Of a stretch of 47,211 nt of DNA, positions 2,074 through 26,573 are shown piece after piece. The notes beneath the pieces were generated by a model. That model was given only the letters and a program-made list of their open reading frames with translations, was not told the DNA's origin and ran no database searches. Both the position numbers and the translations under genes were made by a program. Positions within the stretch are counted from its first letter, which is position 1, and every line of letters begins with the position of its first letter. The stretch comes from a virus, in the IMG/VR virus record IMGVR_UViG_3300047318_000379, positions 1 to 47,211 of that record; one strand, written 5' to 3'.

Positions 2074-3342
2074 ATGTTAAACGAAAAACTAATATTGGCA
2101 GGTAAAGTCTTAAGCCCGATAACGCATGATAAGTATCGTAACAACTATAATAATTACCGCACCCTCATAGCTAAAGCCTTAAGAATAGGTCAAAGGGATA
2201 TTAAAGTCGAAGCTCTGATGCCAGGAACTACAGTGGAGTTCCTTACTTTTTATCTACACAGGGATTATCTTACTAGTAGTTTTATTACCTATCTTGAGAA
2301 TGGGTTTGGAAAAACTAATGTAATAGAAGATAAGACTGAAAATACAATCTATATTGCGTATGATAGCTGTCAACTAAATTTAGTATTGGTAGACAAAGAT
2401 TTTACTGCTCTAGAGAATTTTGTCTTCTACCATTCGTTTGGAAAGATGGGAGAAGTATTAGGCGCTATTGCTAAAAGAATGGGAATGAAATATACTGATG
2501 GAGGTTTATTCCTTCCAGTCTATCTTCAGGGTAAGCATTTGACTGACGTAAGTATTACTTCTAATTGGTATGAGTTAGTTGGGATATTAGGATTGCCCTA
2601 TTTGTATATGGATTCTGCTAACAACTTGGATTTGAACGTTTTTTGGAATTCTATCTCTCGTTCAAGGTATTTCTCAAAAGATGCTTTTCCAGTAACTCCA
2701 GAAGGTGAAGTAAGTACTTCCCCATTACTGGATTTCATAAAGCAAAAAGTTGCTACACTAAATCCAGCAGATATGTATGTGTACTCCACTGGTAAAACGC
2801 CTTGGTTAGCGGGTATTAAGAAATCATATCCTACAGTTCTAGATAGAGTTAGAACAGTTATTAGAGAGTCAATTAGGACCGATGCTTTACAAAATAAATT
2901 ACCTGACAGCTTGATCTCAGAAGCTTCTGGAGTAACAGAGGTATCAAGGGTACTTGCTCTGCGAAATAAAATTAAGTCATCATTTGTAAGCATAAACTCA
3001 TATGAAGACTTTATCTTAAGTAGTTCTTTTGATACAATTAAGAACAAGATTATTAGTGAAGCACAAGTGAGTTCCGGTGATCAAGTAAATACGATACCTA
3101 AGTTAGAAGTAAAAAATCGTAAACCTAAAAGGTTGGGTGACTTTAAACTGCCTCACGACGTTAAGGATTACCAGATGGTAAAGCTTGGAGGATTTTTAGT
3201 TAAAGTACTTGGTATATCTAAAGCTAATAATCGAGCAGAAGTTGTGGTTCAAGGTTGTGATGTAGACGAGTACGCTTATCTAATAAATGGACACTACACA
3301 TTCATTCCTTTAGAAGATCCTCCTTCAGTGCAATCTAAATAA
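2074..3342 (+). CDS. Possible nucleotidyltransferase-fold phage protein (422 aa)
   Basis: Function uncertain. Residues about 45-150 resemble a nucleotidyltransferase-like family of large viruses: an MPGTTVEF start, a strand pattern QLNLVLV, then FYHSFGKMGEVLGAIAKRMG and KYTDGGL, where relatives read S-x-x-x-x-G-x-L-I-G-R-I-A-x-K-M-G and K-Y-G-x-x-G-L. Relatives usually have Asp where this protein has Asn in QLNL, so catalysis may be altered. The remainder is not recognised and the C-terminal 60 residues look like a small beta domain. AAGGA precedes the ATG. Flanked by the variant promoter at 1994 and a strong terminator at 3355, so it is transcribed apart from the repair operon that follows. 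Confidence 0.6.
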   Translation: MLNEKLILAGKVLSPITHDKYRNNYNNYRTLIAKALRIGQRDIKVEALMPGTTVEFLTFYLHRDYLTSSFITYLENGFGKTNVIEDKTENTIYIAYDSCQLNLVLVDKDFTALENFVFYHSFGKMGEVLGAIAKRMGMKYTDGGLFLPVYLQGKHLTDVSITSNWYELVGILGLPYLYMDSANNLDLNVFWNSISRSRYFSKDAFPVTPEGEVSTSPLLDFIKQKVATLNPADMYVYSTGKTPWLAGIKKSYPTVLDRVRTVIRESIRTDALQNKLPDSLISEASGVTEVSRVLALRNKIKSSFVSINSYEDFILSSSFDTIKNKIISEAQVSSGDQVNTIPKLEVKNRKPKRLGDFKLPHDVKDYQMVKLGGFLVKVLGISKANNRAEVVVQGCDVDEYAYLINGHYTFIPLEDPPSVQSK

Positions 3343-3413: not shown

Positions 3414-4412
3414 ATGCCACTTTCTCATAACCAACAAATTTTATTAACCCGCCAACGCCACGAAGCTGAGCGTATGGGGTTGCACTGGGACTATCGTATA
3501 GTCGTTGGTGGCAAAGCGTATTCTTGGGCAACTAAAAAAGAAATGCCTGAACCGGGCAAAGCCATTATTTTACATGAGCAACCCATCCATACTTCTCATT
3601 ATGCTCTAAGTCCTAAAGTGATCATCCCTTCAGGTCAGTATGGTGCAGGTGTTACAACTTTGGATTGGGTACGTAAAGGTAAAGTTGTTAACCAAGAAGA
3701 GAGCGTTGATAAATTTGTTGTCGAAACTACTGAAGGCGATAGATTCTTATTTAAAAGAACTCCCCAATATTCAAATAAAGCTTGGTTGTTTAAGAATCTT
3801 AAGAAACCTGACGCTATAGAGAAGAAAGCGGAAGATGGGCGTATATGGTTATACCATGGTAGCACTCCCGCTAGAATTGAAGCCATTCTTAAAAACGGTC
3901 TAGATCCTAAACTTCAAGGATCGAGGATGGGTGCACCCGACTTGCTAAATAATGAAAAAGTAATGTCTCTTACTGCAAATAAGGATGTTGCAAAAATCTA
4001 TTCTTCTCCAGATTCTATTATCAAACTAGTATTAGGTGGAAAAAGTCCAGAGCCTCTTCTAGTCAGAGTTAACACTGGAAATAGATTAAAAGAGGTGACT
4101 CCAGATTGGGATCACAACGAATGGCACTACAATGATAAGGTTTCTATTAAGGACATCCTAACAAGTGATATGCCTGAATATAGAAAAATTGAAGAAAACA
4201 AATACGTAGAAAAAGTAGCTGCTAGGATTGAAGGTTTCTGTGACACTCCTGGGGCTATTTACCATAGTAAATTTAAGGGTAATAACGTAGGTATGAGTGT
4301 GACTCTACCAAGTCATGTTGTAATACCGAAGCATGCTATGGAAGGCATAGAGTTGGAAATGCACGATGCCATAGAAAAGATACTCGGAAAATATTTTAAA
4401 AAGAAAAACTAA
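3414..4412 (+). CDS. LigD-type 3'-phosphoesterase domain fused to ADP-ribosyltransferase-like domain
   Basis: Residues 1-125 match the 3'-phosphoesterase domain of bacterial ligase D, which trims 3'-phosphate or ribonucleotide ends before sealing. Visible are RHEAERMGLHWDYR (H16, H24, D26, R28 in the metal/phosphate-binding pattern H-x-H-x-D-x-R), SWATKKEMPEPG and IIPSGQYGAG. Residues about 140-240 (IWLYHGSTPARIEAILKNGL, then MSLTANKDVAKIYSS) look like an ADP-ribosyltransferase or RNA 2'-phosphotransferase-type fold. At residues 262-269 an internal NKYVEKVA repeats the peptide that begins the downstream proteins, followed by a 63-residue tail. No Shine-Dalgarno. The stop overlaps the next ATG (TAATG), so it is coupled to the helicase. 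The PE assignment is strong, the ART one moderate. Confidence 0.8.
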   Translation: MPLSHNQQILLTRQRHEAERMGLHWDYRIVVGGKAYSWATKKEMPEPGKAIILHEQPIHTSHYALSPKVIIPSGQYGAGVTTLDWVRKGKVVNQEESVDKFVVETTEGDRFLFKRTPQYSNKAWLFKNLKKPDAIEKKAEDGRIWLYHGSTPARIEAILKNGLDPKLQGSRMGAPDLLNNEKVMSLTANKDVAKIYSSPDSIIKLVLGGKSPEPLLVRVNTGNRLKEVTPDWDHNEWHYNDKVSIKDILTSDMPEYRKIEENKYVEKVAARIEGFCDTPGAIYHSKFKGNNVGMSVTLPSHVVIPKHAMEGIELEMHDAIEKILGKYFKKKN

Positions 4413-6535
4413 TGGCACTTAATGATAAATATACAATGAGGGAACACCAGCTTCACGCCGTAGAAACAGCGGTGAAGCGTAATGGTAATATCATCCTCTC
4501 ACACCCGGTAGGGTCTGGTAAGACTGGCTCCTCTATTGCTGTATTTGAGAAACTAAAACTAGATGGTTTAGCAAACCGTGCACTAGTTGTGACACCCGCA
4601 TCACTACGTACTAACTATGGGGAGAATGGGGTAAAGAAATTTACCGACTCTGATTATCGTGTGTATGGTAATAAACAAGAGGTTTCATCGGACCAGACTG
4701 GATTATTTTGTGAGCCAAAAAGCGAAGGCCCAGAATACGGTTTGGTAAGTTATGAGATGTTCAGGGAAGATCCTGAGAAATACATCAAAGGGCATAACGC
4801 TGATACCGTTATTTTTGATGAAGTACATCGTATTAAGAATGATGAGAGTAAAACCTTTAAAGCATTAAAGGATTCTCGTGGCATGTTCCGCAATTTTATT
4901 GCGATGACAGGATCTATCACATCAAATACTCCGGCTGACGTTGTTCCTCTTATAGATGCAATGACTGCTGGCAATCACCAACTTGGTTCTAAAGCATCCT
5001 TCGAGAATCGTTTCGTTAAAAAAGATGCTAAAGGTAAGATTGAAGTTATCAATCCTATCCTTGTTCGTTCGCTTATCGCTCCTTATGTTCATAACGTTAC
5101 CGAAGAGCAGCTTGAAGAAGGCACGGGTATAAAACGTCCAGATAAGTACGTCCATGAAATTAACATCCCATTATCAGGTCAGCATGAAGAATACTACAGA
5201 TATGTTATCAAACAACTTGATCCTATTACTAAAGCCAAATTATCACATGGCTTAGGAAAACTAGGTAAGGCTGAACTTGACCAGATCTTCTCTAAAATGC
5301 TTAAAGCTCGTCAAGTAGCAAACTCTATGCACATGTTAGACACTAACATGACTTTAGAAGAATCCGCAGAGAAATCCGTAAAGATAAAACGTTTATTGGA
5401 TGATGTCGAAGAGCATTTAAATACTGTGCCCGATGCACAAGTCGTAGTTCATTCCGAGCTAATACAAGGTGGTCTTGACGTTCTTCAAGCTGGTCTTAAG
5501 AAGCGTGGTATAGAATATGGACTATTCATTGGTAAAGGTAACAAAGGTGTTACTGAGAAAAGCCGTCAACAAGACGTAGATGACTACAATGCTGGTAAAA
5601 AGAAAGTTCTTCTTATCTCTGCTGCTGGAGGCGAAGGTCTGGACTTGCCTAATACTACTTTAGTGGCATCGCTGGATGGACATTGGAATCCAGAGAAAAT
5701 TAATCAAGTAGAAGCTCGTGGTATTCGTATGGGAGGTCTTTCCCACCGTCCTGAATCAGAACGTAAGGTTATCGTTAACCGTTATATTACTAAGCTTCCG
5801 GTATCGAATATAGATACAATGAGAAACACTAAAAATCTCCTGTCCCCCACAGAATTTGCTATGCGTATTTTTAAAGGGGAGAAGGCGTTTTTTAATCCAC
5901 ATAAAGCAATGCCAACCGTAGACCAACTTATGTACGCCGTAGCTAAAAGCAAAGCCCAAGGTAATGAACAACTAAAAGGTTTGTTTGAAAAAACCTCTGC
6001 TTATAGTTTTAACAGTGACAGAAATATTCTCAATTCGTATTTAGACCGTTTCCAAGATAAACTTCTTACAGGAGATTACCAAGATAAATGGATAGACGAA
6101 GCAGAAGAAAATCGTTATATCAATCGTCTAAAAAGGTATTACGCAAGTGCCAATAGGAAGGGAGTCGTTGCAGTTACTCCTAAGGATTATGATAAGTATA
6201 AAGACCGTACTAGACAGTCTCAGGCCCTTAGAAATTTCGGCATGGGTATGGGTCTTGGAGCGGGCATTGGTGGTTTATACGGAACAGCTTATACAACTAA
6301 GCTTTTAGGATTTAAAAAGGCATTGAAACTAGGAGCGGGAGTAGGGACTATTGCAGGAGCAATAACAGGAGGTGTAATGGCTAGAAACGGTGATAAGCCC
6401 CATGTTACTACCACTGCAGCAATAGCTAAGAAACGTCTAAAACTAGAAGATGACAATCTACTTAAAATATTACGCGGTGAAGCAGTTAAAGAAGAACAGA
6501 CTAAAGTAACCGAACATTATATTAAGTTGAAATAA
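4412..6535 (+). CDS. SNF2-type superfamily 2 helicase/translocase with C-terminal glycine-zipper segment
   Basis: A 707-aa ATPase expected to move along or remodel DNA. Seen are the Q-like region REHQLHAVE, Walker A HPVGSGKT (K37), DEVH box (D136), an SF2 motif III AMTGS, and a C-terminal RecA lobe with SAAGGEGLDLP and the arginine-finger region QVEARGIRMGG (about residue 431). The unusual part is the tail, about residues 606-660, rich in Gly/Ala (GMGMGLGAGIGGLYG and KLGAGVGTIAGAITGGVMA). It looks like one or two membrane-inserting glycine zippers, as in the tagged proteins next door. Overlaps its neighbour upstream by one base and is followed one base later by the tagged gene at 6537. Role in DNA repair is inferred from operon context. 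Confidence 0.85.
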   Translation: MALNDKYTMREHQLHAVETAVKRNGNIILSHPVGSGKTGSSIAVFEKLKLDGLANRALVVTPASLRTNYGENGVKKFTDSDYRVYGNKQEVSSDQTGLFCEPKSEGPEYGLVSYEMFREDPEKYIKGHNADTVIFDEVHRIKNDESKTFKALKDSRGMFRNFIAMTGSITSNTPADVVPLIDAMTAGNHQLGSKASFENRFVKKDAKGKIEVINPILVRSLIAPYVHNVTEEQLEEGTGIKRPDKYVHEINIPLSGQHEEYYRYVIKQLDPITKAKLSHGLGKLGKAELDQIFSKMLKARQVANSMHMLDTNMTLEESAEKSVKIKRLLDDVEEHLNTVPDAQVVVHSELIQGGLDVLQAGLKKRGIEYGLFIGKGNKGVTEKSRQQDVDDYNAGKKKVLLISAAGGEGLDLPNTTLVASLDGHWNPEKINQVEARGIRMGGLSHRPESERKVIVNRYITKLPVSNIDTMRNTKNLLSPTEFAMRIFKGEKAFFNPHKAMPTVDQLMYAVAKSKAQGNEQLKGLFEKTSAYSFNSDRNILNSYLDRFQDKLLTGDYQDKWIDEAEENRYINRLKRYYASANRKGVVAVTPKDYDKYKDRTRQSQALRNFGMGMGLGAGIGGLYGTAYTTKLLGFKKALKLGAGVGTIAGAITGGVMARNGDKPHVTTTAAIAKKRLKLEDDNLLKILRGEAVKEEQTKVTEHYIKLK

Positions 6536-6536
6536 C

Positions 6537-7508
6537 ATGAATAAATATCTAGAAAAAATAGCCAGAGAGTATACTCAGCAAGAAAATGTGGAGACTGGTG
6601 CAGGGGATAAAATTGGTCTAGGGATTACTTCTGCAGTAAGTGCAGGAATAGTCTCTAAAAAAATTGCTCCTTTCGTTGCGAAACCTGTATCTGCTTTTAT
6701 AAGTAAGGGTACCCCTCGTATTCCAACAGATGCTTTAGACGCAATTACAGATAAAGTACTATCTGCTACTAATTCTACAATGAATCCTTTTGAATTAAGT
6801 AAGCATATGCCTTCAAATCTTTTGATAGGAGCAGCTGGTCAAATGAAGCCCGGAGTGTATACACCAGATGAAATGAATAAAATTAGATGGACAGCAGATA
6901 AGGCTGAAAAACTTAAAGATATCTTCATGGGAGCTCCAGCTCGTTTAGTAGGAATCAACCTACCTAAATATACTGGAGCACTTTCAAGTAGAGAGCCTTT
7001 CATTAAAAATTATATTGCTGACAGCAGACCAATCTCATTAGCAGCTATTGCTGGTGACTTCCTTGGTCAACTTGGAGGTCAACCTGTTAAAAGCACCGTA
7101 AATACTGATTCCTTAGCTCAACATCTAGGTCATGCAACTGACCTTTCTAAAGGAGCTACTAAGCTTAAAAGCAGATTAGGTCTTATTTCTAAAACTATGA
7201 TGACCCCTGCTGCTGTAGTTGCAGGAGGAATGCTTGCAAGTGAAAAAACTAGGGATTACGCTTGGGCAGTTCCTGTGGTAACGGCAGTTCCTGGTATTAG
7301 AAATGAATTGGCATCAAGTATAAATGCTATGAAACTTTTAAAGGGACAGGGCGTTAGTAGAAAAGCAGTCATTCCTATTGCAGCTGCTAATTTGTTAAAA
7401 AGTTTGATTAAACCTGGTTTGACTTCTGGCACTATAGCTGGTATTAATCATCTAAGGGAAAAAGGGGAAGAAGTTAACCCAGAAGAATGGTTAGTGGATA
7501 GAGGATAA
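6537..7508 (+). CDS. Tagged glycine/alanine-rich protein, candidate internal virion protein (323 aa)
   Basis: Starts with MNKYLEKIAREY, the short peptide shared with three following genes. The body is not recognised. It has Gly/Ala-rich hydrophobic stretches (about residues 24-59 and 222-240) and no catalytic motif I can identify. The shared N-terminus resembles the capsid-targeting sequence of T4 internal proteins (pattern M-x-x-Y-x-E-x-I-A). An A-R-E tripeptide right after it would fit the A-x-E type of sites cut by prohead proteases in some large phages. Its stop overlaps the next start (ATAATG). Confidence 0.8.
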   Translation: MNKYLEKIAREYTQQENVETGAGDKIGLGITSAVSAGIVSKKIAPFVAKPVSAFISKGTPRIPTDALDAITDKVLSATNSTMNPFELSKHMPSNLLIGAAGQMKPGVYTPDEMNKIRWTADKAEKLKDIFMGAPARLVGINLPKYTGALSSREPFIKNYIADSRPISLAAIAGDFLGQLGGQPVKSTVNTDSLAQHLGHATDLSKGATKLKSRLGLISKTMMTPAAVVAGGMLASEKTRDYAWAVPVVTAVPGIRNELASSINAMKLLKGQGVSRKAVIPIAAANLLKSLIKPGLTSGTIAGINHLREKGEEVNPEEWLVDRG

Positions 7509-8164
7509 TGAATAAATATTTAGAAAAAATTGCCAAAGCATACTCTGGTGAAAAAGTGGAAATAGAACCAGGCGTATACTACCATTTAGATAAGCATGAA
7601 CTGAAACCTACTACCGCTCATATGGCAGAGTATATGGATAAAAGGGATACTCGTAGTCGATTAGGGGTTGGAGCCGTGTACGGGGCAGTCGGAGGCTTTA
7701 TGGGTGCAGCTATGGGAGATGGCTACCATGGAACACGTCTTCGTCAAGAGGCTCCCCTAACAACTACGAACTATTCTAAGTTTGGTATAGCTGACCTTGA
7801 ATGGGAAAATACTAGACCCGTTCCGGACTTTAATACTAATAGTAGAGATCCGATAGGAGACTATAACCGGAAACTTAGAGATTGGCGGGATAGGCAACCA
7901 CAATGGCACGACTTTACTGAAACTCGACCTTCAGAATTCAAACCAAGATTAACTAACTTAGTTAATAAGTATGGTCATACTCCTACGAAGCGCATCACAA
8001 CTGGATTAGGTGGAGTTGCTGGTGCTTTAGTCATGGGTGGACTTGGCTATGCGGTAGGAGGATTACTTCCGGAAGAAAGACCTATAATTAAAAACCAATA
8101 CTTAGAGAAGTTAGAAAATAGGCACGAACATCATATTAACGAATTAGAGGGCTGGAATGACTAA
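7508..8164 (+). CDS. Tagged protein with two glycine-zipper segments (218 aa)
   Basis: Begins MNKYLEKIAKAYSGE. Two Gly-rich hydrophobic segments (GVGAVYGAVGGFMGAAMG near residues 50-68 and GLGGVAGALVMGGLGYAVGG near 165-186) flank a polar, Trp-containing middle of about 95 residues. Such segments are typical of membrane-inserting or pore-forming phage ejection proteins, but no named family is recognised. It overlaps the gene upstream by one base and the one downstream by eight. Confidence 0.78.
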   Translation: MNKYLEKIAKAYSGEKVEIEPGVYYHLDKHELKPTTAHMAEYMDKRDTRSRLGVGAVYGAVGGFMGAAMGDGYHGTRLRQEAPLTTTNYSKFGIADLEWENTRPVPDFNTNSRDPIGDYNRKLRDWRDRQPQWHDFTETRPSEFKPRLTNLVNKYGHTPTKRITTGLGGVAGALVMGGLGYAVGGLLPEERPIIKNQYLEKLENRHEHHINELEGWND

Positions 8165-8435
8165 TAAGTATCTAGAAAAGATCGCCCTCTTTAGACCTAA
8201 ACGTCAACCTTTAACCAAATTCAAAAAAGAAGAGTTCCAAGGCCGTTTTACAGAAATGTTTGACAAGGCTGTAAAGGGTAGAAAACTGAATGCTGAGAAG
8301 GTTAAGAACTATCGTTGGAAGAACAGCATTGGCATGGTTAATAAAGAAGGTTTACTAAGTAGGCTCTTGGTTCCAAGCAAAGCTAATCCGGGCAAACATC
8401 TGGAACTGAAACATCCAGACTATAAGAAGAAATGA
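8157..8435 (+). CDS. Small very basic tagged protein (92 aa)
   Basis: Starts MTNKYLEKIALF, with one residue inserted before the common peptide. The rest is strongly basic (many Lys/Arg, few acids) and probably binds DNA or packs with it, as small basic internal proteins of other phages do. No domain recognised. It overlaps both neighbours (8 and 4 bases), so it is translated as part of the same operon. Confidence 0.75.
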   Translation: MTNKYLEKIALFRPKRQPLTKFKKEEFQGRFTEMFDKAVKGRKLNAEKVKNYRWKNSIGMVNKEGLLSRLLVPSKANPGKHLELKHPDYKKK

Positions 8436-8917
8436 ACAAATACCTAACGAAGATAGCACAACAACTTAAGGAAGAGGCTCACCCCTCTTCTCTAGGTATT
8501 GACCTTGATAAAGGAACGGACCCTGAACTACACAAATGGCTCATAGCAGTCACCTTATTTTCTAAGCCAATTCAGCGTAGTGTTGCTGCTCGTACTTCTA
8601 TGCAGTTATCTTCGGAAGGTATTGATAGCCCGGAAGCTATTGGTAAAGCTGGCTATTCAAATCTATTAGAATCTCTACAGAGGGGTCACTATTCTCGCTA
8701 TGATGAGAGCACTGCTAAAACCCTTCTTATACAAGCCAAACAGCTGCATGACCAGTATGGATCTATCTCTGATTTCGTAGCCCGAAGAACACCGGAAGAG
8801 ATACGAAAAGAAATCATAAACCTAAGAGGTATTGGTCCTATGGGTAGTAAACTTTTCGTAGAAGGACTTGAGCCACATTTACAAAAGTTTCAAAAACCAG
8901 TCGAACATCCTGTATAA
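8432..8917 (+). CDS. Endonuclease III-like HhH DNA repair protein with N-terminal tag (161 aa)
   Basis: Tag MNKYLTKIA, then an all-helical domain (residues about 25-150) with the layout of the HhH-GPD/endonuclease III superfamily: LHKWLIAVTLFSKPIQRSVAA near the start and the helix-hairpin-helix LRGIGPMGSKLFVEG near residues 136-151. Family members remove damaged bases or act as AP lyases. I do not see the C-terminal Fe-S cysteines of canonical endonuclease III, and catalytic Lys/Asp residues cannot be placed with confidence. It sits just before a DNA ligase, consistent with excision repair. Confidence 0.7.
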   Translation: MNKYLTKIAQQLKEEAHPSSLGIDLDKGTDPELHKWLIAVTLFSKPIQRSVAARTSMQLSSEGIDSPEAIGKAGYSNLLESLQRGHYSRYDESTAKTLLIQAKQLHDQYGSISDFVARRTPEEIRKEIINLRGIGPMGSKLFVEGLEPHLQKFQKPVEHPV

Positions 8918-8944: not shown

Positions 8945-9829
8945 ATGTTCGCACGCCAACCTTATAAAGAACAAGAAGACTGGACGACTCTTAAAGATCC
9001 AGTAGCCACTGTTAAATATGATGGAGCTCACTATTTTTTAGCTGTTAAAGATGACGGGGCTTTAACTTTCCATTCCAGACGACCTAGTGTTAAAGGAGGC
9101 TTCCCTGAAAGAACCGAAAAGCTTCCGCACCTTACTACTAAAAAATTCCCAGAGCTTTCGGGTAATGTGTATTCAGTAGAGTTAATTCACACAGGTCATA
9201 AAAAGGAAAATAAAGAATCTCATCCAGCAGTGAGTGGACTTCTCAATTCTTTAGCTCCAAAATCAATCGCTGACCAAAAAGAAAAAGGCCCTATCAGGGC
9301 TGTTCTGATTGATGTTATAAACCCACCTTTACCTACGTATAAAGATAAGCTCTTACATATGAAAGATGTGGAGAAGAAGATTGGCAAACCAGATTTAGTC
9401 TTTGTTCCTGAACCAGCCATTACAAAAGAAGCTATCGTAAAACTTATTACTAAAACCAAAGTTCATGGTCACGAAGGAGTTATTATTACTTCTTTAACTA
9501 CCCCTGAAGCAACGAATCCCCGTATCAAAATTAAACATAAAAATACGTATAACCTTCGAGTAACAAAGATTCAGCAAGAGATAGATATGCACGGCAAACC
9601 TAAAGAACAGGCAGGAGCTTTAATTGTAGAAGATGCTATTGGAAGAGAAGTGGCTTCAGTAGGTACGGGTCTTAGCAGAGAATTAAAACAAGAAATCTGG
9701 AAAAACAAAGGTGACTGGATTGGTCGCTTGATCCAAGTGGAGACTATGGGTACCGTCAAAGAAAAGGGTAGACTTAGAGCGCCTGTCTATAATGGAGATG
9801 CAGATGGGGACATTGATTTAGTAGAGTAG
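8945..9829 (+). CDS. ATP-dependent DNA ligase (294 aa)
   Basis: Seals nicks through a covalent lysyl-AMP. Motif I is KYDG (K24). Further motifs are HSRRP, VYSVELIHTG (motif III), EGVIITS (motif IV) and KIKHK (motif V). An OB-fold-like tail follows from about residue 205 (GALIVEDAIGREVASVG). It is short, like viral minimal ligases. There is no clear Shine-Dalgarno. Together with the separately encoded LigD-type phosphoesterase at 3414, the operon supplies two of ligase D's activities in trans. A promoter motif begins one base after the stop. Confidence 0.9.
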   Translation: MFARQPYKEQEDWTTLKDPVATVKYDGAHYFLAVKDDGALTFHSRRPSVKGGFPERTEKLPHLTTKKFPELSGNVYSVELIHTGHKKENKESHPAVSGLLNSLAPKSIADQKEKGPIRAVLIDVINPPLPTYKDKLLHMKDVEKKIGKPDLVFVPEPAITKEAIVKLITKTKVHGHEGVIITSLTTPEATNPRIKIKHKNTYNLRVTKIQQEIDMHGKPKEQAGALIVEDAIGREVASVGTGLSRELKQEIWKNKGDWIGRLIQVETMGTVKEKGRLRAPVYNGDADGDIDLVE

Positions 9830-10166: not shown

Positions 10167-11339
10167 TTATCCTTTGATTCTTATCGGAGTATTCTCTTTG
10201 ATCCTACCTTCTTTCAAAGCTTTCAGAGCATCAAGTTCAGTGTCAAATTCCACGGTCTTTTGAGCTTCATCCGGTTCTGTCATATATACCGATCCGATAA
10301 TAGCTTCATGTCCAGGAGCAACCATAGAATTACCTAAACCTCTACGGTAGTCATGGATATGGTGTTCTGGTAGAAGTTTCTTTTTAGCTTCCTCAACTGC
10401 TTCAGGTGTCATTGGCACTTGTATAGTCAGAGCATCTCCATCGTAGTCACCAGCGTATAAAGGAAGGTGCAATGGATTCAATCCAATAGTCTTACCCTTA
10501 ATAGGAACAGCAAAGTGAGCAGTAACGTTAGTCCTCATCAGCGTAGGTGCTCGGTTAAGTATGATAGGAACCTGCTTAATCAATTTACTAAGAGAAGCTT
10601 GTGCAGCTGGGTTTCTGGACTCTACGGCATTTTTAGCAGAAACATAGTCAAAGCCTTGTTTAGTTAAATCACGAAGTAAGTGGAACTGAAAAGTTGTCCA
10701 CAGCATATCTTCGGGAATAGCAGCTTCGTTAAAACCAAGATTAGGCTCTGCGTAAATGGTTCCACGACCAGAGAAGTCTTGTTTCTTACTTAGGAGTTTT
10801 GAGTGGAACAATCCACCCTTCGGACCTGAAGTACCGCTAATTTGCTTTATATAGCCCTTCAAGCTTTTCCCACGACTTGCGCCACTGATTGCATCACCTA
10901 GACCGAAAACAGCCTTAGCGCCTGCGTAGAGGTCTCTACGGGCATCCATGAGCTGGTTGTTAGGATATATATCTTTGTTGTACTTAAGAGGCTCATTTAC
11001 AAGCATGTGATCTCTATACAACATATTTACATCGGCGTAAGTAATGTTGTTATTACCTTCAACCATTGTAGGTCTAGTCAAAGGCGGAGCCACTGGTATA
11101 TTTCGTAAAATATACGCTTGCTGTGGTTTAAGCTCCGACTTACGAAGTCCTTCTAGATACTTAAGCTTTTTTACTAAGTCATCTTTTTTACTAGGACTCT
11201 TAGTTGTTTTAATTTCTTGCTTAATACCTTCGAATTGTTTATTAATGTCTACTTTACCAAGTAACATCTCAAAGGCAGGACCGCCTGCAATAAGAAGGTT
11301 TGTATCAGCATCTGGTTTTTGAGTCGTTGGTTTTGCCAT
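10167..11339 (-). CDS. rpoC: RNA polymerase beta' subunit, middle (active-site) piece
   Basis: A 390-aa polypeptide equal to roughly E. coli beta' residues 170-560. After a short leader it reads GGPAFEMLLGKVDINKQ, then RNIPVAPPLTRP, KGGLFHSKLLSKKQDFSGR (RNAP lid/rudder area), ILNRAPTL and the catalytic loop YAGDYDGDALTIQVP. The three Mg-binding Asp are kept, while the Asn before them in bacterial NADFDGD is Ala and the Ala is Gly. It ends at the position of bacterial VRITE, here IRIKG. There is no clamp N-terminus; that part is fused to beta. Last gene of the minus-strand late block, two bases after the papain-like gene and just before a terminator. Confidence 0.96.
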   Translation of the reverse strand: MAKPTTQKPDADTNLLIAGGPAFEMLLGKVDINKQFEGIKQEIKTTKSPSKKDDLVKKLKYLEGLRKSELKPQQAYILRNIPVAPPLTRPTMVEGNNNITYADVNMLYRDHMLVNEPLKYNKDIYPNNQLMDARRDLYAGAKAVFGLGDAISGASRGKSLKGYIKQISGTSGPKGGLFHSKLLSKKQDFSGRGTIYAEPNLGFNEAAIPEDMLWTTFQFHLLRDLTKQGFDYVSAKNAVESRNPAAQASLSKLIKQVPIILNRAPTLMRTNVTAHFAVPIKGKTIGLNPLHLPLYAGDYDGDALTIQVPMTPEAVEEAKKKLLPEHHIHDYRRGLGNSMVAPGHEAIIGSVYMTEPDEAQKTVEFDTELDALKALKEGRIKENTPIRIKG

Positions 11340-22659: not shown

Positions 22660-23160
22660 TTAACTGTAATTTAAAGAAACTCTATTATCCCATATATTGA
22701 CGAAATTTGCATTACCATTAGCCCACTCTTCAGTAATGTCCCCATCGTTTCCGACGATTACTCTTCTTATTCTCCAAAGTGGTAATGAGTTAGCAGTGCC
22801 TACAGCTGCTTCTGCTTTATAAAGTAAATTGTCATTTACAAAATCTACTCTTGTTGAATACACTTCATCTTCTCCTGCTTGAGGTCCAGTTGGCCCTATT
22901 CCACCTTGAGGTCCTACAGGCCCCGCAGACCCTTGAGGCCCAGGACTTGCTTGGACATATACATCTTTTACATAGGTATTTACTGTAACCTTTGCTATAT
23001 TGGAATGTTGGTTTATTCCAATTCTAGACTGTCTAGGTAATACTACATTATTAATTTTAACTGTTGAAGCAGAGATAGTAGCATGTGAAGTTTTAGATCT
23101 AGGAGTTAATCCCACTGTCGGATTACTTCCTACTAATCTATCAGGGTTTCTATTTGCCAT
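22660..23160 (-). CDS. Collagen-like tail protein (166 aa)
   Basis: Contains Gly-X-Y repeats (GPQGSAGPVGPQGGIGPTG) around residues 95-113, flanked by an N-terminal part starting MANRNPDRLVG that resembles the start of the 115-aa collagen-like protein (MTNRNPNRFD). The shared N-terminus may be an attachment point. Its ATG overlaps the beta stop codon (ATGA). Confidence 0.8.
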   Translation of the reverse strand: MANRNPDRLVGSNPTVGLTPRSKTSHATISASTVKINNVVLPRQSRIGINQHSNIAKVTVNTYVKDVYVQASPGPQGSAGPVGPQGGIGPTGPQAGEDEVYSTRVDFVNDNLLYKAEAAVGTANSLPLWRIRRVIVGNDGDITEEWANGNANFVNIWDNRVSLNYS

Positions 23161-26100
23161 CAGATTTCTTCTTCGTGCTCTATCTCTTCTGGAGTATCAT
23201 CTTCTACTAGTTCATTAGCATGAACGTTTATAGTCTTAACATGCTTCCCAGTAGTAGTATCATGTAAATGAAATATTCCCTCTTTTTCGTGAATTATTCC
23301 AAGTGCTCCATGAGCCAGGTCTTCAAACTCCTTAGTCTTCAAACCAAGTAGCGATTTAACTGGACGCTCAAACACTGGATTAACAATGGATTCAGCTAAT
23401 TTATAGTGAGTCCATTTATTACCACGAATTCCTCCGGTAAGAGCTGCATCAAATAAACCACCTCTTTCTGGCTCTAAGTTTTTAGTACTCAGCATCAAAG
23501 GCTCTTTGATCTGACCATTACTCATTGCAATAATATCATGGTCGGTCATTGGACTAGCCGTAATATGGCCGTTCTCAATCGTTGTCTTTACACCAGAAGC
23601 ATTCAGATAATCAAAGAACTTCTTAGTTGCAAAAGTCATCTTCGGTTTAGGTAAAGGCTGACCTGTAGCAAACTTACTCCAAAACTCAGAATTCTCTTCG
23701 CTCTTAAGCGTTGCAATTTCTTTCAAATTCTTACGAGCATCTGAACCCATAAGACCAAGCATCTCCATGTAGCCAACGCTCTTCGATCCTTCTTCTCCAC
23801 CCTTAGTAGGTTGCAGAGTATTATCGTATCCGCCAACAGAACGTGCAGAGTAGTTCTGATCACTAGTCTTGTACAGCTTAATAAAGTACTGAGGACCAGT
23901 TAATACTTTTCCTAAATCTTTTCCAGTCTTAGGATCGACAAACATCTCACTGTCTTCAATACCATGATGAGCAAGTTCCTTATGTAATTCCCCAATGTTC
24001 GAACTCTTAGAGAAGTTATGAATAAGGTAAGGCTTGCCAGTTTTCTCAGCAATTTTACCCGCTACAGTTTCCATCAATTGACCAAGGTTAATACGAGAAG
24101 TAACAGAAGCTGGGTTCAACACAATATCTGCTGGCTTACCTGATTCTTTGTTAAAAGGCATTTCATTGTCGTTAAGAATAAGCGACACAATACCTTTGTT
24201 TCCATGGAAACCAGTAAGTTTATCTCCGACTTCAAGATGCTTTATAGAGCGCATAAGAATACGAATAGCCTTGCCTTCAGTATGCGCATCAACTACAACT
24301 CCCGGTTCATCATGGGTCCATGCTTCACTAACAGGGCGATATGGTAAAACTAATGTCTTATGCAAACGACCCAACATTTTATCTTCAGGAGTAGGTTCAC
24401 GTTTTTCCAAAACAATATAGATAGGATCCCCGTGAAGGAACTCTGCACCAAGTCTAGGGAATCCTTGGTCATCTAGTTTTGCCAATTGTTCCTTAGTATA
24501 CTTACCAGGAAAATATCTGCTGATAAGAGATTTTTTAAGAACACTAGTTGGTTGCACATCATAATCAATCTTATACGCATGATGACTAGACAATCCATCT
24601 GCACAACTTTTAGAAATGACTAGTCCATCCTCGTGATTGTATCCCTTGTATGGCATATACGCCACAGTAAGGTTTTTGCCCAAAGATAGTATGCCGTGCT
24701 TGGTGTAGTTATTATCTACAAGTACTTGATTTTCTTTAACCTTCTGTCCAACTTTTACTAAAGGAGCTTCATCATCGTAAAAACCCTTCATGTTAAAAGG
24801 AAGATTTTTTACTAAGGTAATTACATGAATCTTACCTTCTTTGTCCTTGACTGTAACTTTTTCAGAAGAGATGGATTCCACAACACCATCAACAGGGGAA
24901 ATGGACGAAGATACAGTTTGTGCTAAAGAAGTCACAAAAGGTTTGCCTGCATGATCTACCGTTTGTACTAAAGGTACTTCTCTATGAACTAATGACAACG
25001 CTTGAGGAATAGCTTTACCAGCCATAGTCAAACGGCCTGGGTGATTAGAATTCAGGAATGGTACGAGGTTAGTTGTAACAGTATAGATATCGGTAGTATC
25101 CGCCAACCAGTAGTCCACCTTCTTAACGTCAGTATCTCCAAGCACACCCTTGATTTGAGCCTGTACTTTAGTCTTTCCCTGTTGATGCGGAAATCCAATA
25201 GTAGAGTTCATCATCTCATGAACAGACAGAAAATGCTCTTTACCTTGATTGTCGAGAACACGAGTATACAGATTACCTTCTTTGTCACGACGAGCACTAA
25301 TAGTAAAACGTTGGTCAATACCAGCGTGTCCTGATTCAGGAGTACGACTAGGATCAATGATACCTAAGTGAGACGGATCGATATCTCTAGCAGTCATAGG
25401 GACGCCTCGGTCACTGCCGATACCTCCTTCAAGCCCGCCGAGTACAGTTACTTTACCTACATTCTCTAGCGATTCAATAGGATTCGTTTCAGTAGGTGTA
25501 GTGACTAAGTTTGAATCTACGATATAACTGGTGAAGAGCTTATTAAAAGGCTTTGCTACGATAGTATTTCGGATTTTGATCGGGTCACCAGATTTCTCCG
25601 CTTTATCAATAGCATAGCTAATACGATTCTTAAGGGTAGAAGTTAACAGCTTTTCTTTTTTGAAACGTGTTTCTAAGAAGTCTGGTAAGTTCTGTACTGC
25701 TTTAAATTGCAAACTGTCTCGGTTATCTTCTTCACGTTTTCCAGCGTGAACGTCTACTAAGTTTCTCAGGGCTAAAAGAATAGCCTCATGAGTTACTGAT
25801 GAGATAGGCTTACCTAGAGTAACCTTGGTCGTAGAAACATTCAGCTGTGAGTTTTCCAGAGATTGTCTAAGAGCGAGAATCTTGTCCTCCTCTCCTGCTG
25901 CAGGATCTTTCTTAAAGACAAGTTTTTGGTAAAGATCGTTAACAACTTTAGCTTCTTTACCTGCACTGGCTTTGAGGTTATCGTTCCAAACTTCTAATGG
26001 AATATAGTTAGAAACTTCTCTTGGGCCAATTCCAAATACACGGCTTAACACAGGGGCTAAGAGAATGCGTGAGCTTTTAACTTCTAAATAGAAAAGACCG

Positions 26101-26573
26101 GTCTGAGGTTCCAGAGTTACTGAAAAGCTGCTACCAGTACCAGTGTTAAAGTGAGTCTCTAACTCTCCAGTATCTTTTGAACGAGTGTAGGCTCCAGGAC
26201 GTAACTGGAGCTGATTAGCTACGGCGTAGTTGGAACCTTTATACAGTAAAGTATGTTTACCGGAAATGTAAAACGAATCCATTAAAGAAAAGTTCTTCTG
26301 GACATCCATTATATTACCGGTTTCTTTTTCAGTAAGAGTAAGAGTTCCACGAATAGGATACGTCAAACTCTTGTTCTGTAAGATAGCGTCTTTCTCATCA
26401 GCGGCAGTGTAGTTCTTACGATCCACTTGAATATCGGAAACTGACAGTACATATTTTTTAGTTTCTAGTGGAAACTGAGAATAAATACCCGCAATGAGAC
26501 TCGCATCAACGTTATCGTTAATGATTTTTGGGGATGTAAAAATTCGTTGAAGTTCTTCTTTTTGCTTAGGCAT
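23160..26573 (-). CDS. rpoB: RNA polymerase beta subunit fused to N-terminal part of beta' (1137 aa)
   Basis: Residues 1 to about 1000 are a complete beta subunit: MPYKGYNHEDGLVIS (catalytic Glu-Asp pair), LEVGDKLTGFHGNKGIVS (both active-site Lys), DIVLNPASVTSRINLGQ, and the C-terminal KSVGYMEMLGLMG...TLKSEEN. A normal beta would stop soon after. Here the protein continues (from about residue 1004, base 23564) with ITASPMTDHDIIAMSNGQIK, PERGGLF at residues 1035-1041 and WTHYKLAESIVNPVFERPVK. These align with the beta' N-terminus (L-A-S-P...G-E-V-K-K-P...K-P-E-R-D-G-L-F...M-G-H-I-E-L-A). The zinc-binding domain normally between the last two is absent. An acidic tail closes it. AGGA precedes the ATG. 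Confidence 0.96.
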   Translation of the reverse strand: MPKQKEELQRIFTSPKIINDNVDASLIAGIYSQFPLETKKYVLSVSDIQVDRKNYTAADEKDAILQNKSLTYPIRGTLTLTEKETGNIMDVQKNFSLMDSFYISGKHTLLYKGSNYAVANQLQLRPGAYTRSKDTGELETHFNTGTGSSFSVTLEPQTGLFYLEVKSSRILLAPVLSRVFGIGPREVSNYIPLEVWNDNLKASAGKEAKVVNDLYQKLVFKKDPAAGEEDKILALRQSLENSQLNVSTTKVTLGKPISSVTHEAILLALRNLVDVHAGKREEDNRDSLQFKAVQNLPDFLETRFKKEKLLTSTLKNRISYAIDKAEKSGDPIKIRNTIVAKPFNKLFTSYIVDSNLVTTPTETNPIESLENVGKVTVLGGLEGGIGSDRGVPMTARDIDPSHLGIIDPSRTPESGHAGIDQRFTISARRDKEGNLYTRVLDNQGKEHFLSVHEMMNSTIGFPHQQGKTKVQAQIKGVLGDTDVKKVDYWLADTTDIYTVTTNLVPFLNSNHPGRLTMAGKAIPQALSLVHREVPLVQTVDHAGKPFVTSLAQTVSSSISPVDGVVESISSEKVTVKDKEGKIHVITLVKNLPFNMKGFYDDEAPLVKVGQKVKENQVLVDNNYTKHGILSLGKNLTVAYMPYKGYNHEDGLVISKSCADGLSSHHAYKIDYDVQPTSVLKKSLISRYFPGKYTKEQLAKLDDQGFPRLGAEFLHGDPIYIVLEKREPTPEDKMLGRLHKTLVLPYRPVSEAWTHDEPGVVVDAHTEGKAIRILMRSIKHLEVGDKLTGFHGNKGIVSLILNDNEMPFNKESGKPADIVLNPASVTSRINLGQLMETVAGKIAEKTGKPYLIHNFSKSSNIGELHKELAHHGIEDSEMFVDPKTGKDLGKVLTGPQYFIKLYKTSDQNYSARSVGGYDNTLQPTKGGEEGSKSVGYMEMLGLMGSDARKNLKEIATLKSEENSEFWSKFATGQPLPKPKMTFATKKFFDYLNASGVKTTIENGHITASPMTDHDIIAMSNGQIKEPLMLSTKNLEPERGGLFDAALTGGIRGNKWTHYKLAESIVNPVFERPVKSLLGLKTKEFEDLAHGALGIIHEKEGIFHLHDTTTGKHVKTINVHANELVEDDTPEEIEHEEEI

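Follow-up and report, generated by a model that had tools for sequence, protein, structure and literature searches.

Why would four neighbouring genes with otherwise unrelated products open with the same short peptide? The question arose in a stretch of viral DNA that we call the window (the whole of IMG/VR record IMGVR_UViG_3300047318_000379, a linear fragment of 47,211 nucleotides). Four consecutive plus-strand ORFs in it begin with M(T)NKYL[E/T]KIA, namely MNKYLEKIAREY at 6537, MNKYLEKIAKAY at 7508, MTNKYLEKIALF at 8157 and MNKYLTKIAQQL at 8432. Beyond the first 9-10 residues the bodies of the four proteins are unrelated, in agreement with the original prediction, which had likened the shared peptide (the tag) to the T4 capsid-targeting sequence and proposed a delivery system for injected repair proteins.

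We started with the four proteins themselves. Tagged protein 1 (6537-7508, +; 323 aa, pI 9.7; tag MNKYLEKIA at 6537-6563, +) has a C-terminal domain (aa 154-297) that is found again in other tagged proteins from relatives (G010 49403, G006 128240, G012 32810 and G002 43656). Tagged protein 2 (7508-8164, +; 218 aa; tag MNKYLEKIA at 7508-7534, +) contains two Gly-rich hydrophobic stretches and is similar at its N terminus to the tagged protein G006 101091, while tagged protein 3 (8157-8435, +; 92 aa; tag MTNKYLEKIA at 8157-8186, +) is very basic, with a pI of 10.3. Tagged protein 4 (8432-8917, +; 161 aa; tag MNKYLTKIA at 8432-8458, +) had been predicted to be a repair enzyme. An HhH-like stretch, spotted by eye, and the fusion of its relatives to DNA ligase (453 aa, tagged) favour that assignment, but a Pfam search and phmmer against the PDB returned nothing for this protein. 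A tblastn search against known phages gave no match, a scan of viral contigs yielded no confirmed relative, and the AlphaFold model (mean pLDDT 49.7) was too poor for use.

The four ORFs overlap or abut, and they lie downstream of two ORFs on the same strand (3414-4412 and 4412-6535) and ahead of a DNA ligase gene at 8945. Searching the window for the tag revealed a fifth copy, overlooked at first. This one is internal: it lies within ORF 3414-4412 (+), which encodes a LigD 3'-phosphoesterase domain, an ADP-ribosyltransferase (ART)-like domain and a C-terminal module, in that order, with tag-type motifs between the modules. One of these is IEKKA (3816-3830, +), a match to the core motif described below, between the phosphoesterase and ART-like modules; the other is the internal tag NKYVEKVA (aa 262-269; 4197-4220, +; context ENKYVEKVAA). 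ORF 4412-6535 (+) encodes an SNF2-type helicase with a C-terminal Gly-zipper-like region, and a degenerate tag-like sequence, LFEKTSA, separates the two parts; in relatives, tags are found on or ahead of the helicase. The ATP-dependent DNA ligase (8945-9829, +) carries no tag in the window; the G012 ortholog (34839) does have one, and in G002 the enzyme is fused to the tagged HhH-like protein. The tag is absent from all remaining ORFs of the window. Further upstream, a 422-aa protein (2074-3342, +) gave a weak match to a DNA-polymerase PHROG (E 0.0019, aa 92-184) and has several diverged homologs in relatives.

Next, we asked whether the DNA or the peptide is conserved. Codons within the window tags vary synonymously (TAT/TAC, CTA/TTA, ATA/ATT/ATC, GCC/GCA), and the 70 non-redundant NKYLEKIA starts collected from the lineage are written as 63 different 24-mers. 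The conserved entity is therefore the peptide, and its amino-acid sequence is under selection, as had been proposed from the window alone. A search of IMG/VR with a degenerate pattern for ATG-NKYLEKIA found 53 stretches on 29 contigs, many of which carry several copies, while a permuted peptide of identical composition had no match there. The same pattern matched once in 257 Gb of cellular genomes, in an Acholeplasmataceae MAG, and we take this match to be chance. Among 126 N-terminal instances on unrelated bodies, Y was kept in 124, L in 123, E in 102, I in 103 and A in 120 (K was fixed by the search pattern). No paper with the peptide came up in a full-text literature search, which covered few subscription journals. 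The frequent tandem arrangement of tagged genes might instead suggest copied gene starts, that is, a mobile 5' end with an initiation signal and a peptide without function. We find this barely credible: one octapeptide is encoded by 63 different DNA versions, the free amino-acid variation that would favour it is not seen, internal and split tags exist, and the related family of another clade, described next, retains the core alone.

Variant tags indicate how the peptide is built. In at least six split tags, a start of NKYL or similar is followed by a short insert and then by the core (MNKYL-IS-IEKVA, MNKYL-NW-IEKEA, MSNKYLDKV-LEKQA, MNIFL-EQ-IEKNA, MSNRYIAH-LEKQS and MNKYLTQLQHNIS-MVKEA), so that the tag has two separable elements. 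Four of the nine credible internal tags in fusion proteins lie within 12 aa after another core motif (P about 2e-5). A LigD-type 3'-phosphoesterase domain is present in all relatives examined (G001, G002, G003, G005, G006, G010 and G012), where its partners vary (ART-like, SNF2 helicase and others) and a core motif or tag sits at the junction; in 8/8 proteins compared, the phosphoesterase domain is followed by a core motif or tag despite differing downstream modules. In a different clade (locus L148, 16743-17700), four neighbouring genes open with MNTLLKLA, MNALLKIA, MNGLLKLA and MSGLLKIA. Judged from these starts, MN-x-LLK[IL]A is a second, distinct N-terminal tag, which keeps just the LxK[IL]A core.

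To place the tag in a lineage, we compared RNA polymerase (RNAP) and major capsid protein (MCP) sequences. Homologs of the window RNAP beta subunit, at 60-75% identity, are encoded by 11 of the 12 tag-bearing records tested, and the nearest isolates by this protein are Salmonella phage Arash (about 53%) and Vibrio phages D69, D148 and D181 (52%). A search with the MCP retrieved 53 loci. Strict tags occur at 29 of the 32 loci with MCP identity of at least 60% and at 2 of the 21 loci below 60%. The three exceptions in the former group are one 6.6-kb fragment and two loci without a strict tag, L143 and L166, the first of which carries NVYLEKIA and NPYLEKAA instead. Arash has no NKYLEKIA tag, and a search for any other shared N-terminal tag in it found none. 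The near confinement of strict tags to the loci with closely related MCPs, together with their absence from Arash, argues that the tag is a derived trait of one clade. As a separate observation on the polymerase, the window encodes it in three pieces, all on the minus strand: beta (23160-26573; 1137 aa), an N-terminal beta' part (10167-11339; 390 aa) and a C-terminal beta' part truncated at the end of the contig (left edge to 1421). Arash has beta and the N-terminal beta' part in one protein, gp206 (1525 aa; alignment to the latter part at 1139-1524), so relatives differ in where the polymerase is split.

Where the tagged genes lie speaks to what the tag does. In six genomes they are on average 1.7-3.2 genes from virion anchors, compared with 20-63 for random genes. 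The average for G002 is 19.4 because one match counted as tagged (at 161601) lies within an unrelated 806-aa protein; we attribute this match to chance. Clustering with virion anchors is significant in each of seven genomes or large fragments (p <= 0.005). The tagged genes are mixed in with those for portal, RNAP, protease, scaffold-like proteins, MCP and tail, and are interspersed among orthologs of the Arash virion proteins gp216-gp238. Tags are carried by 4-9 proteins per genome. Among this candidate cargo, the members with recognisable domains are SNF2 helicase, PARP-like ART, DnaJ/Gly-zipper protein, LigD phosphoesterase and the fusion of ligase with the HhH-like protein; numerous small basic proteins are tagged as well. 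Delivery of repair proteins, as first proposed, is therefore too narrow a description: it fits the phosphoesterase, the ligase and the helicase, but not the ADP-ribosyltransferases, the DnaJ/Gly-zipper proteins or the small basic proteins.

Arash virions have been analysed by tandem MS, and the results (PMC10585845) allow a comparison with the tagged families. RNAP beta was the most detected protein and the most abundant by spectra. Gp96, an ortholog of the tagged ART of G001 (E 8e-11), was represented by 15 peptides and 816 spectra, and Gp217, an ortholog of the tagged helicase (41% identity), by 38 peptides and 1148 spectra (PMC10585845). Both proteins are untagged in Arash, the tagged copies being those of other genomes. 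The orthologous ART and helicase of Arash thus enter the virion although they lack NKYLEKIA, so there is a way in besides the tag. In the other Arash cargo, an N-terminal core motif was not significantly enriched (4/56 versus 6/203, p = 0.23), and we did not retain it as an Arash packaging signal outside the head proteins. The coverage column of Table 2 in the same report (Arash; L056-L059) is implausible, with 89.7% given for Gp183 on 2 unique peptides, and the idea of reading cleavage from MS coverage was dropped for this reason (PMC10585845).

Taken together, the genomic setting and the Arash virion data make head targeting by the tag well supported. The original prediction had named a tag on many non-virion metabolic proteins as one observation that would count against it; instead, tagged genes cluster with virion genes in 7/7 genomes, and two tagged families have orthologs that are abundant in Arash virions (PMC10585845). 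The same data bear on whether the peptide might send proteins elsewhere, for example to a phage nucleus or the membrane, an idea prompted by cargo that consists partly of DNA enzymes or Gly-zipper proteins. We consider it highly improbable, since no tag is found on RNAP, on sigma or on further early or metabolic genes and the tagged genes lie among virion genes, since orthologs of tagged families are present in virions (PMC10585845), and since capsid proteins carry the same motif.

This motif, [L/M/I/F]-[E/V/T]-K-x-A-[S/A/G], emerged as a short repeat when head proteins were compared. In eight head families, [LMIFYV]xKxA[SAG] occurs 200 times, compared with 15.6 in shuffled sequences. A control with R in place of K gave 2 occurrences versus 6.5 shuffled, a wrong-spacing control 21 versus 15.7, and counts for other spacings or residues were much closer to chance. 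Outside these, in 27 families that include tail, portal, RNAP and sigma, the motif was found 17 times against about 25. An unbiased residue-pair scan of head proteins placed K-x-A and L-x-K on top. The motif is dense in Arash head proteins and recurs in a scaffold-like protein, at the ends of the protease and at the MCP N terminus: gp223, the scaffold-like protein, has up to 15 copies, the MCP has it at aa 27-30 with K28, E29 and A30 invariant, and the protease has it at about aa 30-35 and again near its C terminus. This protease is the gp222 family, predicted to be the head maturation protease by HMM homology only (11/11 orthologs match the head-maturation-protease PHROG 18299, best E 1.7e-12); an AlphaFold model of a homolog (mean pLDDT 52) was too poor, and a PDB fold search gave nothing. 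The core motif also forms the latter half of the tag (L-E-K-I-A-[S/A/E/G]), with similar following residues. After the tag these are S, A, E and G, mirroring those after the head motif, but the position is less restricted than in head proteins, and in the four window tags it is occupied by R, K, L and Q.

Could known cleavage motifs explain the head motif? The T4 motif [LI]xE[AGS] shows no enrichment in the head families (57 versus 59.7 expected), nor do sites of the phiKZ/SPN3US type in head proteins (A.E 219 versus 202; [SA].E[SAG] 65 versus 83.6), and both explanations were rejected. The suggested likeness to T4 therefore stands in part: the peptide would work like the T4 capsid-targeting sequence, but it does not belong to the T4 system, a Lys-dependent motif being enriched in place of [LI]xE[AGS].

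The distribution of the core motif also helps to decide what the tag would bind. If the tag were a docking peptide for the virion RNAP, cargo would ride on the packaged polymerase, not the scaffold, into the head and later into the cell. RNAP beta' and beta are indeed often flanked by tagged genes, RNAP tops the Arash virion proteins by spectra (PMC10585845), and this beta subunit is encoded by 11/12 tag-bearing records. We nevertheless think this very unlikely, because the core motif is found in the MCP, the protease and scaffold-like proteins and is not enriched in RNAP, portal or sigma, and because many tagged genes adjoin MCP and tail genes. Alternatively, [LMIF]xKxA might serve solely for docking to a component of the scaffold or shell, so that the tag recruits cargo and is never cut. 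This accounts for the enrichment in head proteins, for the clustering of tagged genes and for the only partly restricted residue after the tag. It fits less well with up to 15 repeats in gp223, with the small residue favoured after Ala, with the placement of tags and core motifs at module junctions, or with the motif at the protease N- and C-terminal ends and the MCP N terminus, where T4 and SPN3US proteases cut (PMC9026906, PMC10052503), and we regard it as unlikely.

We favour the view, at a probability of roughly 0.7, that the peptide is a head-targeting propeptide that doubles as a site for the lineage's own maturation protease. Docking onto the scaffold core of the prohead during assembly would be the role of N-[K/R/I/V/P]-Y-L. 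The second element, L-E-K-I-A, would be one instance of a more general site, [L/M/I/F]-x-K-x-A-[S/A/G], that the head maturation protease reads. Tagged proteins, encoded beside the virion genes, would be trapped in the core during shell assembly. Motif placement suggests that the tag is then cut, most likely after Ala, although the exact scissile bond is inferred. The trimmed cargo would stay in the head with the DNA, ready for the next host, and by analogy with T4 and given the presence of RNAP in virions it may be ejected. Where cargo genes are fused, a tag between modules could allow one polyprotein to be packaged and then split.

A more ambitious proposal, to which we give a little less than even odds, is that this head-loading code evolved apart from that of T4: a bipartite signal, NKYL plus a Lys-dependent LxKxA|S site of new specificity, used on many cargo enzymes and between fusion modules, by which phosphoesterase, ligase, helicase and ADP-ribosyltransferases would be packaged as precursors or polyproteins, cut apart once in the head, and delivered together with the DNA and virion RNA polymerase. 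If true, the tag could be read from sequence to give a candidate list of head cargo for the whole lineage, which usually needs virion proteomics, and it would provide a second, independent capsid-targeting code for comparison with T4. It would also predict a new maturation-protease specificity, checkable by a single peptide assay, offer a possible route for loading chosen enzymes into phage heads, and suggest that ADP-ribosyltransferases and enzymes for DNA-end repair are delivered by these phages along with the genome.

Several known systems invite comparison. Encapsulin cargo-loading peptides likewise are short peptides that bring enzymes into an HK97-fold shell, but they bind the shell lining and are usually C-terminal; to our knowledge they do not serve as maturation sites.

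Arash shares the gene family and order, and its virion contains orthologous ART, helicase and RNAP (PMC10585845), but it lacks the NKYLEKIA tag, and the accessible part of that report does not describe the motif. SPN3US and phiKZ (proteases gp245 and gp175) are likewise large phages with a virion RNAP, many internal proteins, a maturation protease and several site copies in cleaved regions (PMC10052503, PMC5694885). Their protease cuts after a short motif ending in Glu (PMC10052503, PMC5694885), whereas A-x-E is not enriched in the head proteins here. The propeptides of those phages are for the most part long (111-254 aa), and many cargo proteins do not share one uniform short tag.

A close functional parallel is T4 (IPII/IPIII and Alt; protease gp21, core gp22), in which internal proteins attach to the scaffold core through a capsid-targeting sequence of 10 residues, with residues 4 and 7 serving targeting and 8 and 10 processing, and in which gp21 cuts at L/I-x-E and cleaves core proteins into multiple fragments (PMC9026906). 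The original prediction gave MKTYQEFIAEA as the start of T4 internal proteins, and this holds for IPII and IPIII. In both systems a short N-terminal peptide is common to unrelated, often basic proteins, which are internal in T4 and predicted to be so here, Tyr stands at position 4 with Glu6, Ile8 and Ala9 in register, and targeting and processing residues would overlap within about 10 aa; both also have an ADP-ribosyltransferase in the cargo, here candidate cargo, and a scaffold or scaffold-like protein with several copies of the site (PMC9026906). Unlike in T4, the head proteins here are enriched in KxA[SAG] and not in [LI]xE[AGS], the tag is Lys-dependent, more uniform and sometimes split or internal, the tagged cargo (4-9 proteins per genome) includes helicases, ligase and phosphoesterase, and the lineage has its own RNAP. 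Judged by these likenesses and differences, the system is of the capsid-targeting kind by function and stands outside the T4 system.
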